Source: Tyzzerella sp. An114 | GTDB lineage: Bacteria; Bacillota; Clostridia; Lachnospirales; Anaerotignaceae | Reading direction: 5' to 3' | Length of the DNA: 64,000 bases | NCBI RefSeq assembly: GCF_002161055.1 | Contig: NZ_NFLT01000006.1 | Coordinates: 154,215 to 218,214 of the forward strand | Part shown: positions 23,123 through 26,527 of the stretch, in pieces | Layout: every line of letters begins with the position of its first letter | How positions within the stretch are numbered: the first letter of the stretch is position 1 | The notes under the pieces: generated by a model | Told to the model about the DNA's origin: nothing | Database searches by the model: none | What the model saw: only the letters and a program-made list of their open reading frames with translations | Made by a program: the position numbers and the translations under genes

Positions 23123-23407
23123 ATGGAAGAATGTTTTAGAAATTATATTGGTAAATACTCAAAAAACAACGTAAATACAAGGAATTGTAATGATACAAAC
23201 ACAAATCCTGACACAGATATAACCTTCACAAATTGCAACAGATGTGTTATAGAAAAGATAGGATATGCTCAGGCTTATGTGCCATATCAGGAAGACACCA
23301 GTACCGCCAGTGAAGGACAAAGCCTTTTGACAGGCACAGTTTTTTCAGCTCTCGAAATGCCCTATGAAAAAGGTTCAGCTTTAAGAAGATTTAGTGTAAA
23401 GGAGTGA
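23123..23407 (+). CDS. cotJA: Spore coat protein CotJA
   Basis: The 94-aa protein contains the CotJA domain in its C-terminal half: KIGYAQAYVPYQ, then LLTGTVFSALEMPYEKG. CotJA is a small spore-coat component made in the mother cell. The N-terminal ~40 residues are rich in Asn, Thr and Asp (NNVNTRNCNDTNTN) and look low-complexity, unlike the compact B. subtilis form. SD AAAGGAGAT lies 8 nt upstream. It is followed 4 nt later by cotJB in one operon. Confidence 0.88.
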   Translation: MEECFRNYIGKYSKNNVNTRNCNDTNTNPDTDITFTNCNRCVIEKIGYAQAYVPYQEDTSTASEGQSLLTGTVFSALEMPYEKGSALRRFSVKE

Positions 23408-23411
23408 TTTT

Positions 23412-23672
23412 ATGACAAGGGACGAATTATTAAAAAGCCTTATGGAACTTGACTTTATGGCTGTTGATATAGGACTTTATCTCAACACCCACCCAACAGA
23501 TAGTGTAATGATTGAAGAATACAACAAAGTTGTAACAGCCGGTCAGACTTTACGTGAAAAATTTGAAAATCTTTATGGTCCTCTCTGTTCTTTCAGGTCT
23601 TATGCTCAAAAAGGATGGGAATGGATAGACAATCCTTGGCCATGGCAGCCTTCTGCAAATTTTAATTTATAA
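23412..23672 (+). CDS. cotJB: Spore coat protein CotJB
   Basis: The 86-aa protein matches CotJB throughout: LMELDFMAVDIGLYLNTHP, then an acidic helix, and the C-terminal aromatic motif GPLCSFRSYAQKGWEWIDNP plus WPWQ. It is a structural spore-coat/inner-coat protein that works with CotJA and CotJC. It lies 4 nt after cotJA and 20 nt before cotJC, with SD AAAGGAG. Confidence 0.93.
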   Translation: MTRDELLKSLMELDFMAVDIGLYLNTHPTDSVMIEEYNKVVTAGQTLREKFENLYGPLCSFRSYAQKGWEWIDNPWPWQPSANFNL

Positions 23673-23692: not shown

Positions 23693-23887
23693 ATGTGGAT
23701 TTATGAAAAAAAACTTGAATTTCCTGTAAAAATTAAAAAGCCCGACGGAAGGCTTGCAAAAATAATGATTGAACAGTATGGGGGTTCTGACGGAGAACTG
23801 GGAGCAGCTTTAAGATATTTAAGCCAAAAATTTACTATGGTTACACCAGAGGCAAAAGCAACATTAAACGATGTAGGTAGTTCGTGA
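23693..23887 (+). CDS. cotJC: CotJC (manganese catalase family), N-terminal segment of a split gene
   Basis: The 64 codons give the first 62 residues of CotJC (MWIYEKKLEFPVKIKKPDGR ... LNDVG). Then the frame leaves homology at SS and hits TGA. It keeps the first predicted Mn ligand, E35 in GGSDGELGAALRYL, but lacks all others. SD AAAGGAGAT is intact. The break lies exactly at TAGGTA (23874-23879), the same hexamer as at the start of the C-terminal segment 2,229 bp away. By itself this product cannot be an active catalase. It is best read as the 5' exon-like part of a gene rejoined by recombination. Confidence 0.92.
   Translation: MWIYEKKLEFPVKIKKPDGRLAKIMIEQYGGSDGELGAALRYLSQKFTMVTPEAKATLNDVGSS
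23874..23879 (+). repeat. Left recombination core (attL) of the cotJC element
   Basis: TAGGTA in the context AACGATG|TAGGTA|GTTCGTGAT. The gene side is cotJC codons D60-V61-G62. The element side supplies one half (GTTC-GTGAT) of the predicted attP dyad. Its copy is at 26103-26108. Confidence 0.8.
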
Positions 23888-23905
23888 TAAAAATTTAATA
23901 AAAAA

Positions 23906-23925
23906 GCGGATATATAAATATCCGC
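23906..23925 (-). terminator. Terminator of the element's aminotransferase gene
   Basis: GCGGATAT/ATATCCGC forms an 8-bp stem with an ATAA-type loop, 8 nt beyond the aminotransferase stop, followed by TTTTTT on the minus strand. It shields the cotJC N-terminal segment from antisense transcription. Confidence 0.85.
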
Positions 23926-23933
23926 CTAAAATT

Positions 23934-25106
23934 TTATTTTTTAATTATTCCACTCTTATCAATAGCATCAATAAGTTCTTCTATTTTCTCAACAGGTAAA
24001 ACAAGAGCAAATCTTACATGACCCTCTCCAAGAGAGCCAAAGCTTGAACCCGGAGTACATATAACACCTGTTTTCTCTAAAAGTTCCATACAAAATTCTT
24101 CTGAGTTTGTATATCCCTTTGGTAATGGTCCCCATGCAAACATAGTGCCTTCTGAGTCTGGTACATTCCAACCTATTTTTCTAAGACCACCACAGAGGGC
24201 ATCACGTCTTTTTTGATATTCTAAACGGTTTCTTTCAAGTATATCCTGTGGACCATTTAAAGCTGCAATAGCTGCTTTCTGTACAGGAATGAAAATACCA
24301 TAGTCAATTTGTGTTCTTATATTTTTAAATTTGCTTATTATCTCTTTATTTCCCAGAGCAAAAGAAATTCTTGCACCTGTAAGATTATAACTTTTTGAAA
24401 GAGAATTAAATTCTATTCCAACATCTTTTGCACCTTCAAATTTTAAGAATGAAGTTCCCTGTCTTCCGTCAAATATAATTTCAGAGTAAGCATTATCATG
24501 GATAATAATGATATTATATTTCTTAGCAAAAGCAATAAGTTTTACATAAAACTCATCAGGAGCTGTCTTACAGACTGGATTTGCTGGGAAAGATACAATC
24601 ATAACTTTAGCTTTTTTAGCAAGTTCTTCATCAAAATTATCAAGGTCAGGAAGATAATTATTTTCTTCCACAAGCTGATAGTATTCAAGTTTTGCACCAG
24701 CTAAAAATGGAGCTGTACTAAATATAGGATAACATGGGTCTGGAACAAGAACAGTATCCCCCTCATTACAGAGAGCAAGACAAACATGAGTAATACCCTC
24801 TTGAGAACCATAAACAGACATAATTTCATCAGTTTCAAGAGTTACATCATATCTTCTCTTATACCAATTCTGAACAGCCTCCAAAAGTTCAGGCATATCA
24901 GCCAAAGCATATTTATAGCTATCAGGATTTAATGCAGCCTCTGAAACAGCCTGCATAACATGAGCATCTGGTTTAAAGTCAGGAGTACCAACCGAAAGAT
25001 TATAAACAGTTTTACCCTCTTTAATCATCTGATTTTTTTTCTCATTGAGAACAGAAAATATATTAGGCTTAAAGCTTTCTTCTCTATCAGAAAAAACAAA
25101 ATTCAT
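23934..25106 (-). CDS. PLP-dependent class I/II aminotransferase carried by the cotJC element
   Basis: The 390-aa protein is a fold-type I aminotransferase. It shows NLSVGTPDFKP, YGSQEGITHVCLAL, SFPANPVCKTAP, HDNAYSEIIFDG, the PLP-lysine motif SLSKSYNLTGARISFALGN (about residue 230) and the substrate-binding Arg in GHVRFALV. It resembles the LL-diaminopimelate/aromatic aminotransferase branch; the substrate is not certain. It looks intact and full length. The ATG at 25106 with SD AAGGGGG is chosen over the frame start at 25157. It is transcribed away from the recombinase and would be lost from a cell in which the element excises. Confidence 0.88.
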   Translation of the reverse strand: MNFVFSDREESFKPNIFSVLNEKKNQMIKEGKTVYNLSVGTPDFKPDAHVMQAVSEAALNPDSYKYALADMPELLEAVQNWYKRRYDVTLETDEIMSVYGSQEGITHVCLALCNEGDTVLVPDPCYPIFSTAPFLAGAKLEYYQLVEENNYLPDLDNFDEELAKKAKVMIVSFPANPVCKTAPDEFYVKLIAFAKKYNIIIIHDNAYSEIIFDGRQGTSFLKFEGAKDVGIEFNSLSKSYNLTGARISFALGNKEIISKFKNIRTQIDYGIFIPVQKAAIAALNGPQDILERNRLEYQKRRDALCGGLRKIGWNVPDSEGTMFAWGPLPKGYTNSEEFCMELLEKTGVICTPGSSFGSLGEGHVRFALVLPVEKIEELIDAIDKSGIIKK

Positions 25107-25186
25107 AAATAATTCCCCCTTATTTTTCATTTTGATATGTGGAAAATTATAATACAAATTTTTAAAAAAGGATAGAGAAAAACCGT

Positions 25187-25212
25187 ATAAAATTAAACAA
25201 AAAACATAAATA
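25187..25212 (+). promoter_or_regulatory. Possible mother-cell (sigma-E-like) promoter of the recombinase
   Basis: ATA (25187-25189) and CATAAATA (25205-25212) are 15 nt apart and resemble a sigma-E pair (ATA / CATACANT, six of eight). The start codon follows 33 nt later. This is an eye-read match in an AT-rich gap and is weak. Confidence 0.3.
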
Positions 25213-25245
25213 TTAATAGTAAATAAAAATAAAGGATTATTTTAT

Positions 25246-26112
25246 ATGAAAAAAGCAGCAGTATATTGTCGTGTATCAACAGAAAAAACCGACCAAATAA
25301 ACTCACTACAATCACAAAAAAATTTTTTTACAGATTACATATCAAAATCAGATAACATAGAACTTTATAAAATATACTGTGATGAAGGGAAAACAGGAAC
25401 AACAGTATCAGGAAGAAAAGAATTTATGAAAATGATAAATGAAGGGCTAAAAGGAGAATATGACATAATACTTACAAAAGAAATAAGCCGTTTTGCAAGA
25501 AACACTTTAGACAGCATAAAATACACAAGAATACTAAAATCAAAAGGAATAGGAATATATTTTATAAATGATGGCATATACACCCTTGAAAATGACTCAG
25601 AACTTCGTCTTGCAATACTTTCATCAATAGCACAGGAGGAAAGCCGAAAAACCTCTGAGAGAGTACGCTTTGGACAAAAAATAAGTATGGAAAAAGGTGT
25701 TGTCTTTGGAAGAAGTCTTTTAGGCTATGATGTTAAAAACGGAGAAATGCATATAAATGAAGAAGGAGCAAAAATTGTACGTTTAATATTTTCAATGGCA
25801 AAACAAGGCATGGGAAGTTATAAAATATCAAAAAAACTTATGGAAATGGAAATTCCATCTTTTAGTGGCAATAATATATGGCATAATTCAATGATACATA
25901 AAATATTGAGAAATGAAAAATACACAGGAGACCTTGTACAACAAAAAACATACACAACAGACTACCTAAACCATAAAAGAAAATATAATAAGGGAGAAAG
26001 AGAATTTATAATAATAAGAAATCACCATGAGCCTATAATAGACAGAGAAACATTTTTAAAAGTACAAAAAATACTTGATAAAAGAAAAAAATCATCACCC
26101 AATAGGTACTGA
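25246..26112 (+). CDS. Short serine site-specific recombinase, probable excisase of the cotJC element
   Basis: The 288-aa protein starts with a resolvase catalytic domain (residues 1-145). The nucleophile is S11 in AVYCRVST; DEGKTGTTVSGRKEF, TKEISRFARNTLDS and SIAQEESRKTSERVRFG follow. A recombinase domain comes next (about 155-285: LLGYDVKNGEM, GAKIVRLIF, KILRNEKYTGDL). It stops right where related large serine recombinases begin their zinc-ribbon and coiled-coil domain, so those are missing. The last codons (AAT AGG TAC TGA) read through the TAGGTA core. On the excised circle the frame would instead end AAT AGG TAG, one residue shorter and otherwise unchanged. SD AAAGGA. Confidence 0.92.
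   Translation: MKKAAVYCRVSTEKTDQINSLQSQKNFFTDYISKSDNIELYKIYCDEGKTGTTVSGRKEFMKMINEGLKGEYDIILTKEISRFARNTLDSIKYTRILKSKGIGIYFINDGIYTLENDSELRLAILSSIAQEESRKTSERVRFGQKISMEKGVVFGRSLLGYDVKNGEMHINEEGAKIVRLIFSMAKQGMGSYKISKKLMEMEIPSFSGNNIWHNSMIHKILRNEKYTGDLVQQKTYTTDYLNHKRKYNKGEREFIIIRNHHEPIIDRETFLKVQKILDKRKKSSPNRY
26103..26108 (+). repeat. Right recombination core (attR) of the cotJC element
   Basis: TAGGTA in the context ATCACCCAA|TAGGTA|CTGAGG. The element side (ATCAC-CCAA) mirrors the left junction's GTTC-GTGAT: with the core they form a dyad of 5-bp arms ATCAC/GTGAT, each 4 nt from the core, centred on GG. That is the geometry expected for a serine-recombinase attP with a 2-bp GG crossover. Confidence 0.8.
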
Positions 26113-26527
26113 GGAATTAGCACACCTTGAAATGATGGGAACAATAGTAAAACAGCTTACACAAGGTCTTAGTGATAAAGAAATAAAAGAAGCAGGACTT
26201 GACCCTTATTATGTAGCCCACGGTTTAGGAGTATATCCATCATCAGCGGCCGGAGTTCCTTGGACAGCATCATATATGCAGTCAAAGGGAGACCCTATAA
26301 CAGACCTTTACGAGAATATGGCAGCAGAACAAAAAGCTCGCTCAACCTATGAATATTTAATGGATTTAACAGATGACCCAGATGTTTTAGCACCTTTAAG
26401 ATTTTTAAGAGAAAGAGAAGTTGTTCATTTCCAGCGTTTCGGAGAAGCCTTAGGAATTGTAAGAGATTATATGAATGAAAACAGATTTTTCAAAATGGGA
26501 AACACTAAAAATATAAAATGGAGATAA
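26105..26527 (+). CDS. cotJC: CotJC (manganese catalase family), C-terminal segment of a split gene
   Basis: From codon GGT at 26105 the frame encodes GTEELAHLEMMGTIVKQL through FLREREVVHFQRFGEALGIV, i.e. CotJC residues 62-201. It carries the remaining predicted Mn ligands E65, H68, E136 (AAEQKAR) and H169 (VVHFQRF). There is no SD and no convincing start codon of its own; the frame runs upstream only as far as a TTG at 26075 inside the recombinase gene. Expression therefore needs fusion to the N-terminal segment. Both segments lack stops, frameshifts or decay, arguing against a simple dead gene. Basic C-terminal tail NTKNIKWR. Confidence 0.92.
   Translation, partial: GTEELAHLEMMGTIVKQLTQGLSDKEIKEAGLDPYYVAHGLGVYPSSAAGVPWTASYMQSKGDPITDLYENMAAEQKARSTYEYLMDLTDDPDVLAPLRFLREREVVHFQRFGEALGIVRDYMNENRFFKMGNTKNIKWR

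Follow-up and report, generated by a model that had tools for sequence, protein, structure and literature searches.

Does the DNA that interrupts cotJC in Tyzzerella sp. An114 put this gene for a manganese catalase of the spore coat out of use, or is it removed when the gene is needed? The DNA analyzed here (the window) is a stretch of 64,000 nucleotides from this organism, in which 2,229 bp, with TAGGTA on either end, interrupt cotJC at codon 62. The sporulation genes named as split targets of excisable elements in the available text of the literature are sigK, spoVFB, spoVR, spsM, gerE, yabG, and kamA (PMC5595907, PMC10747680, PMC5025042, PMC4191935, PMC6957869, PMC5553647, PMC3789829). In the known cases, as far as the available text describes them, sporulation controls the recombinase or its directionality factor, and the altered chromosome dies with the mother cell (PMC4191935, PMC5025042, PMC5595907). 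The cotJ genes of B. subtilis are controlled by sigma-E, according to the title of Henriques 1995. Several papers mention cotJC (including PMC4028888, PMC3416734, and PMC3533761), and in searches of the open-access literature we found no report of cotJC as the target of such an element.

Results

A two-gene element interrupts cotJC in the window

The gene order in the window is cotJA, cotJB, codons 1 to 62 of cotJC, the element, and codons 62 to 201 of cotJC. Both cotJA (23123 to 23407, forward strand; PF11007, E 3e-6) and cotJB (23412 to 23672, forward strand; PF12652, E 1.1e-25) are uninterrupted and lie 5' of the split gene. The 5' part of cotJC (23693 to 23887, forward strand) encodes residues 1 to 62, followed by SS and a stop codon, and matches positions 1 to 63 of PF05067 (E 4e-17). 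The 3' part (26105 to 26527, forward strand; residues 62 to 201), which lies within an open reading frame at 26075 to 26527, matches positions 62 to 196 of the same model (E 1.1e-35). The original prediction, that two CotJC fragments lie in the same orientation with TAGGTA at each break, was therefore confirmed. The two cores were placed by sequence, junction alignment, and attP symmetry at 23874 to 23879 (attL, forward strand, central GG at 23876 to 23877) and 26103 to 26108 (attR, forward strand, central GG at 26105 to 26106), a spacing of 2,229 bp. Joining the ends restores the frame, as had been proposed, and gives a single stop-free product of 201 amino acids that aligns with the solved Alr3090 over residues 3 to 179 and with the Mn catalase 1o9i over residues 3 to 176. 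An intact second cotJC had been named as grounds for refuting excision; a search of the draft genome (98.75% complete) found no second Mn-catalase (PF05067) gene. Spo0A-type genes are present.

The element contains only an aminotransferase gene and a recombinase gene, and no phage structural genes were found in it. Just within its left end is a terminator-like hairpin, called by consensus scan only (23904 to 23927, reverse strand), followed by the aminotransferase (23934 to 25106, reverse strand; PF00155, E 8e-62), for which the top NCBIfam models are LL-diaminopimelate aminotransferases, every one scoring under its cut-off. The serine recombinase expected at the right junction is there (25246 to 26112, forward strand; 288 amino acids, with the resolvase and recombinase domains PF00239 and PF07508; clade B1 below), and its reading frame ends within the 3' part of cotJC. 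It is a short form that has no CxxC and, given this, neither the zinc ribbon nor what follows it; a search of the other frames found no lost C-terminal piece. A recombination directionality factor has been identified for several elements of the skin kind. No further ATG-initiated open reading frame of at least 45 amino acids was found in the window element as a candidate for one, and it may be that the short recombinase needs no directionality factor or that a factor acts from elsewhere. The short recombinase may also need a partner. A strict sigma-E-like promoter pattern is absent upstream of the window recombinase, and Rfam and repeat searches gave nothing useful.

The junction is shared with a sister species

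We compared two further genomes of the genus, G001 and G002, with that of the window (G000). The right junction recurs in the sister species G001, where TAGGTA follows a related 285-amino-acid recombinase that is 64% identical to that of the window, although this junction is visible from the right side only because the contig ends before the N part. Its partly sequenced element also carries an aminotransferase to the left of this recombinase and a second recombinase of 416 amino acids. In G002, cotJC is intact, and the aminotransferase lies between cotJC and ftsH. By aminotransferase distance, G000 is nearer to G002 (dS 0.76) than to G001 (dS 1.40), and therefore the element was either gained twice or lost in G002. 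The position of the aminotransferase downstream of an intact cotJC in G002 is not accounted for by simple excision.

Decay of the halves in a sister strain had also been named as refuting, and the C half of cotJC in G001 has not decayed. Between G000 and G001, dN was 0.065 and dS 1.03 for the cotJC C half, and dN was 0.25 and dS 1.14 for the recombinases. The N half, compared between G000 and the unsplit gene of G002, gave dN 0.05 and dS 1.31, and the joined genes of G022 and G024, two genomes with a site-A split (below), gave dN 0.037 and dS 1.00. These ratios are rough given that dS is high and near saturation, but all are well below 1, and from these comparisons the split cotJC halves look to be under purifying selection.

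cotJC is split at a few sites across seven families

Among 58 genomes of the family, sorted by hand, cotJC occurs in two to four complementary fragments in 24. At least one junction lies on a single contig in 13 of those, and in the other 11 the fragments are on different contigs only, where contig breaks at cotJC may account for the fragments. Full-length CotJC was present in 23 genomes (21 by reading the sequence and 2 by length), a single fragment or one kind of fragment in 3 (G001, G013, G053), and a paralogue only in 1 (G045); 1 was undecided at contig ends (G050), and 6 had no match. As a control, ribosomal protein L1 was whole in 52 of the same genomes, in two complementary fragments in 1, a single fragment in 2, and absent from 3. 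We rejected an assembly artifact given that L1 was in two complementary fragments in just 1 of 58 genomes and that cotJC is also broken where the whole genome is in one or two contigs (G024, G029, G082, G205, G223, G279, G331). The nine paralogues that were read, which start with MFKHEK or MFCHEK, were unbroken, in a sample biased to whole genes because loci were given for best matches. Across the order, 233 of 392 genomes drawn as a sample had a cotJC match, and split genes were found in the window family and six further families; loci were inspected in 55 genomes picked for want of a strong full-length match, and the split count is thus not a rate.

Genomes with cotJC parts on one contig yielded 29 junctions from 27 genomes of the seven families, and in all 29 the parts are on the same strand and in order. 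Break points lie close to codon 31 (site A), 62 (B1, the window site), 64 (B2), or 135 (C), and once, in G279, close to codon 98 (site D). Wherever there was enough upstream DNA, a cotJB precedes the N part (22/22). The joined gene is an open frame in 27 of 27 genomes, a mapping that tests open frames and not the choice of frame because no indel was imposed, and in which the imposed register is off by one codon for G029 and G082. The products are 190 to 211 amino acids long in 23 of these; in the remaining four, a part is missing because it is on a different contig or beyond the end of one. In 27 of 28 junctions, including that of the window, the two sides share their central dinucleotide; by eye, the one departure, in G029, comes from a 3-nt slip of register in the automatic mapping. 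This identity and the shared sister junction place the TAGGTA junction beyond chance. A chance 6-bp repeat was rejected on the sister-species junction together with the recombinase clades and attP symmetry described below. Since the same few spots are cut across seven families, cotJC is likely, by these sequence comparisons, a favorite docking gene for removable DNA.

Several loci are more complex. G016, G017, and G032 each have four cotJC fragments, and the fragments of genes in three or four pieces are still recognizable. Repeated 3' copies of cotJC occur in G137 and G187, with no recombinase found in the fetched parts of either, and the final extra copy in G137 has decayed. In G011, contig C31 ends at the site-A core and overlaps by 141 nt with a contig bearing an intact cotJC; a third branch was not found at this fork.

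These data bear on whether cotJC could instead be permanently inactivated and dispensable, with the short recombinase as a dying remnant. The lack of a zinc ribbon, the decayed copy in G137, and the lack of a near-identical joined copy among the protein matches listed are what this explanation would lead one to expect. However, dN is far below dS for both the C half and the recombinase between G000 and G001, no severed recombinase terminus was found in another frame, the joined genes are all open and mostly of full size, and genes in three or four fragments keep recognizable pieces, so that we regard permanent inactivation as unlikely. Constraint on both parts could also be expected if the halves were used unjoined, as a two-chain protein or through trans-splicing. 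This is highly improbable, given that in the aligned junctions the N frame runs into element DNA and element DNA precedes the C part, and that the gene is in three or four pieces elsewhere, with break points that differ between genomes.

Each break site has its own recombinase lineage

Exactly one serine recombinase open reading frame was present in each of 26 completely fetched elements, and the partly fetched elements of G082, G331, and G348 had one each in the portion seen. In a maximum-likelihood tree of 35 recombinases, sites A, B1, B2, and C each form a single clade with support of 100/99 or better, and break site changes 4 times, which is the minimum, compared to a mean of 19.9 when shuffled. 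A quick tree that added viral recombinases, from which the row B1q_L134 (a wrong open reading frame) was disregarded, gave clade B2 a support of 87 versus 100/100. Among the 10 closest relatives of the window recombinase in the 392 genomes (at least 53% identity, its own sequence included), 8 lie in or beside a split cotJC; the other two, on contig 3 of G225 and in G048, are not beside cotJC. A B1-type recombinase also lies beside a cotJC part in MT839280 and MT837874, unannotated human fecal records filed as phage. Near-identical 288-amino-acid recombinases were found on 12 contigs, and the window recombinase as query returned no relative in the genome or viral contigs searched.

Predicted attP sites, made by joining the inner element ends, have arms that pair at a mean of 9.6 of 15 positions (28 junctions, site D excluded), compared to 4.2 in shuffled sequences, 4.9 (maximum, 6.2) when arms were swapped between elements, and 4.0 in the cotJC attB sites. 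The observed total of 270 exceeds the highest of 1,000 shuffled totals (147). One fixed centre was used per site, taken from the most symmetric members, and the null was given the same freedom there; this centre is GG at sites A and B1 and GA at B2 and C. The window attP pairs at 9 of 15 positions (p 0.008), and symmetry is weak in G029, G082, G143, and G039 (p 0.09 to 0.42) and borderline in G344 (p 0.057). The site-A attP pattern had one match among viral contigs, IMGVR_UViG_3300031998_000303, in which an unbroken attP lies less than 20 nt after a 485-amino-acid recombinase that falls inside clade A; no cotJC was found in the 9.3 kb fetched of its 39.9 kb. Neither the site-C pattern nor the window attP matched a viral contig, and the cotJC N part had no match in phage records.

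Elements range from phage sized to 1.6 kb

The largest elements fetched whole reach 37 kb. In nine small elements, a cargo scan covered ten open reading frames, none of which matched a phage family; the cargo includes a sulfate permease (G344), a sodium/hydrogen exchanger (G207), an LD-carboxypeptidase (G347), and an isochorismatase (G022). The sole other open reading frame of more than 50 amino acids in the 1.6-kb element of G385 is a 111-amino-acid stand-alone Spo0A C-terminal domain. Recombinase frames of 278 to 344 amino acids that lack CxxC occur in 5 of 29 elements (G000, G139, G344, G385, G279), and no detached C-terminal remainder of these short recombinases was found. Short recombinases tend to accompany small elements (Spearman 0.44, p 0.018, 29 elements, sizes entered by hand), being present in 4 of 12 elements of up to 5 kb versus 1 of 17 above that size (Fisher p 0.13). 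A strict sigma-E-like pattern lies upstream of 3 of 35 recombinases (shuffled mean 0.6; 4 of 200 shuffles as high). All three matches are at short recombinases, which we take as a lead only given that the pattern was written after G001 had been inspected by eye. The sigma-E -10 alone matched 3 of 35, with no excess, and sigma-K matched 0 of 35.

We considered that these could be ordinary mobile elements that excise at random or under stress, outside sporulation, with cotJC as nothing but a safe landing site. Sizes of up to 37 kb, a clade A recombinase and attP on a free viral contig, and the G011 overlap, which gives the impression of a sample that contained both forms, fit this explanation. 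The small elements do not, in that they have kept one recombinase and exact joins even though their cargo matches no phage family, and other split sporulation genes are, in the available text of the reports, rejoined during sporulation (PMC5595907, PMC4191935, PMC5025042, PMC6957869). We therefore consider excision unconnected with sporulation to be quite unlikely.

sigK is also split in the window genome

Matches to the sigK model on contig 12 are in two parts, which share an orientation and have an offset of 19,529 bp. A 609-amino-acid serine recombinase adjoins the 3' part, and the shared core is short (AATG). From these model matches, sigK appears to be split in the window genome as well. 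A full-length match to the sigK model on contig 1, beside an open reading frame that is SpoIIGA-like by eye, is probably sigE.

Discussion

The best reading of the split in the window, from these findings collectively, is a skin-like excision carried out in the mother cell by the element's own recombinase, and we consider it probable. The shared junction in a second species, the constrained halves, the inverted-repeat attP, the site-specific recombinase clades, and the split sigK all support the skin-like reading put forward in the original prediction. During growth, cotJC would stay interrupted by the element, and the aminotransferase gene would remain in the chromosome. During sporulation, recombination between attL and attR would occur in the mother cell, with the central GG as the likely crossover point, and the rearrangement would not be inherited because the mother cell dies. 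Against this reading we counted that no excised form was found, the short recombinase, the lack of an open reading frame for a directionality factor or of a strict sigma-E pattern, the G002 arrangement, and the two of the ten closest recombinase relatives that lie away from cotJC. With regard to an excised junction or circle, none of the 120 matches listed for the joined protein, from 8,000 scored, exceeded 89% identity, although near-identical 288-amino-acid recombinases occur on 12 contigs.

Skin in sigK of B. subtilis and C. difficile likewise splits a mother-cell sporulation gene, and in C. difficile, as in the window, the 3' part is directly preceded by a serine recombinase, according to the available text (PMC5025042, PMC4191935). 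Unlike skin, the window element targets a coat enzyme, is 2.2 kb long with two genes and a short recombinase, and has a predicted excision. The gin element in gerE of B. cereus is similarly a non-phage element with serine recombinases in a small sporulation gene but, as the available text describes it, is 28.6 kb long with three recombinases and a different target (PMC5595907). A short core with inverted repeats is common to the window and, in the text available, to SP-beta in spsM and phi12-5/phi3T in kamA, two genes that are rejoined in sporulation (PMC4191935, PMC6957869). Those are prophages in other genes, and the nearest parallel here is the free viral contig with a cotJC-type attP. Like the window element, vfbin (spoVFB), vrin (spoVR), and yin (yabG) lie inside sporulation genes (PMC4191935, PMC10747680), but in the available descriptions there is one element per gene, whereas cotJC has at least four sites with separate recombinase clades and up to four fragments per genome.

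The broader proposal, to which we give an even chance, is that DNA excised in development docks again and again in cotJC, making this gene a hub for such DNA in the order. Each of four or more recombinase lineages would read a conserved codon block of its own, and with up to three breaks per genome, the spore catalase would need up to three excisions. The window element could then represent the final stage of domestication, a cassette reduced to two genes whose trimmed recombinase, without zinc ribbon and directionality factor, would excise one metabolic gene with itself.

Known cases have, in the available text, been described gene by gene with a single site each, while cotJC has been split repeatedly by separate recombinase lineages. 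If excision is real, these elements would grade naturally from phage size down to a 1.6-kb cassette, a series that bears on how mobile DNA becomes a developmental switch, and they would provide serine integrases together with their matching attB and attP sites. They would also make it possible to test whether several DNA excisions in series can be a requirement for a coat enzyme.

The last ~110 codons of cotJC, the gene for the spore-coat Mn catalase, are present as serial, closely similar copies in genome G137 (contig 3, 115001-135000; fetched stretch L125), and the cargo between these copies includes a two-component system as well as an ABC transporter for iron. The final copy of the series is decayed. 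The array looks like a stack of elements, each of which brought one 3' end of cotJC. On contig 68 of genome G187 (L126), a pair of nearly identical cotJC 3' halves lies 3.5 kb apart, and the same sequence precedes both.

Some contig ends coincide with the core, the short repeat at each cotJC break. In genome G011 (L158/L159), one contig stops at the core of site A, near codon 31, and shares a 141-nt overlap with a contig on which cotJC is intact; the pattern resembles a fork of the assembly graph at the att site. The end of contig 104 in genome G032 falls exactly on the core of site C, near codon 135.

On contig 99 of genome G385 (L114; position noted, 1486-1818), a small cotJC element of 1.6 kb has a recombinase gene and also encodes a Spo0A C-terminal domain that stands alone. 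In G002, which belongs to the same genus as the window's genome, the aminotransferase is located downstream of an intact cotJC (L035, 5736-8636), whereas in the window it lies inside the element; the cotJC tail of G002 is also different. Elsewhere in the window's genome, on contig 12 (224282-244455; L167/L168), the two parts of sigK are offset by 19.5 kb, and a 609-aa serine recombinase adjoins the 3' part.

Recombinases of the B1 type, the group associated with the codon 62 break of the window, adjoin parts of cotJC in two records from human faeces that carry the name Bacteriophage sp. (MT839280.1 and MT837874.1; L156 and L157). Contig 3 of genome G225 (L131) carries a B1-clade recombinase located away from cotJC, next to a sequence that, judged by eye from a motif, resembles a V-type ATPase B gene in its N-terminal part. 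This recombinase could possibly represent a change of target.
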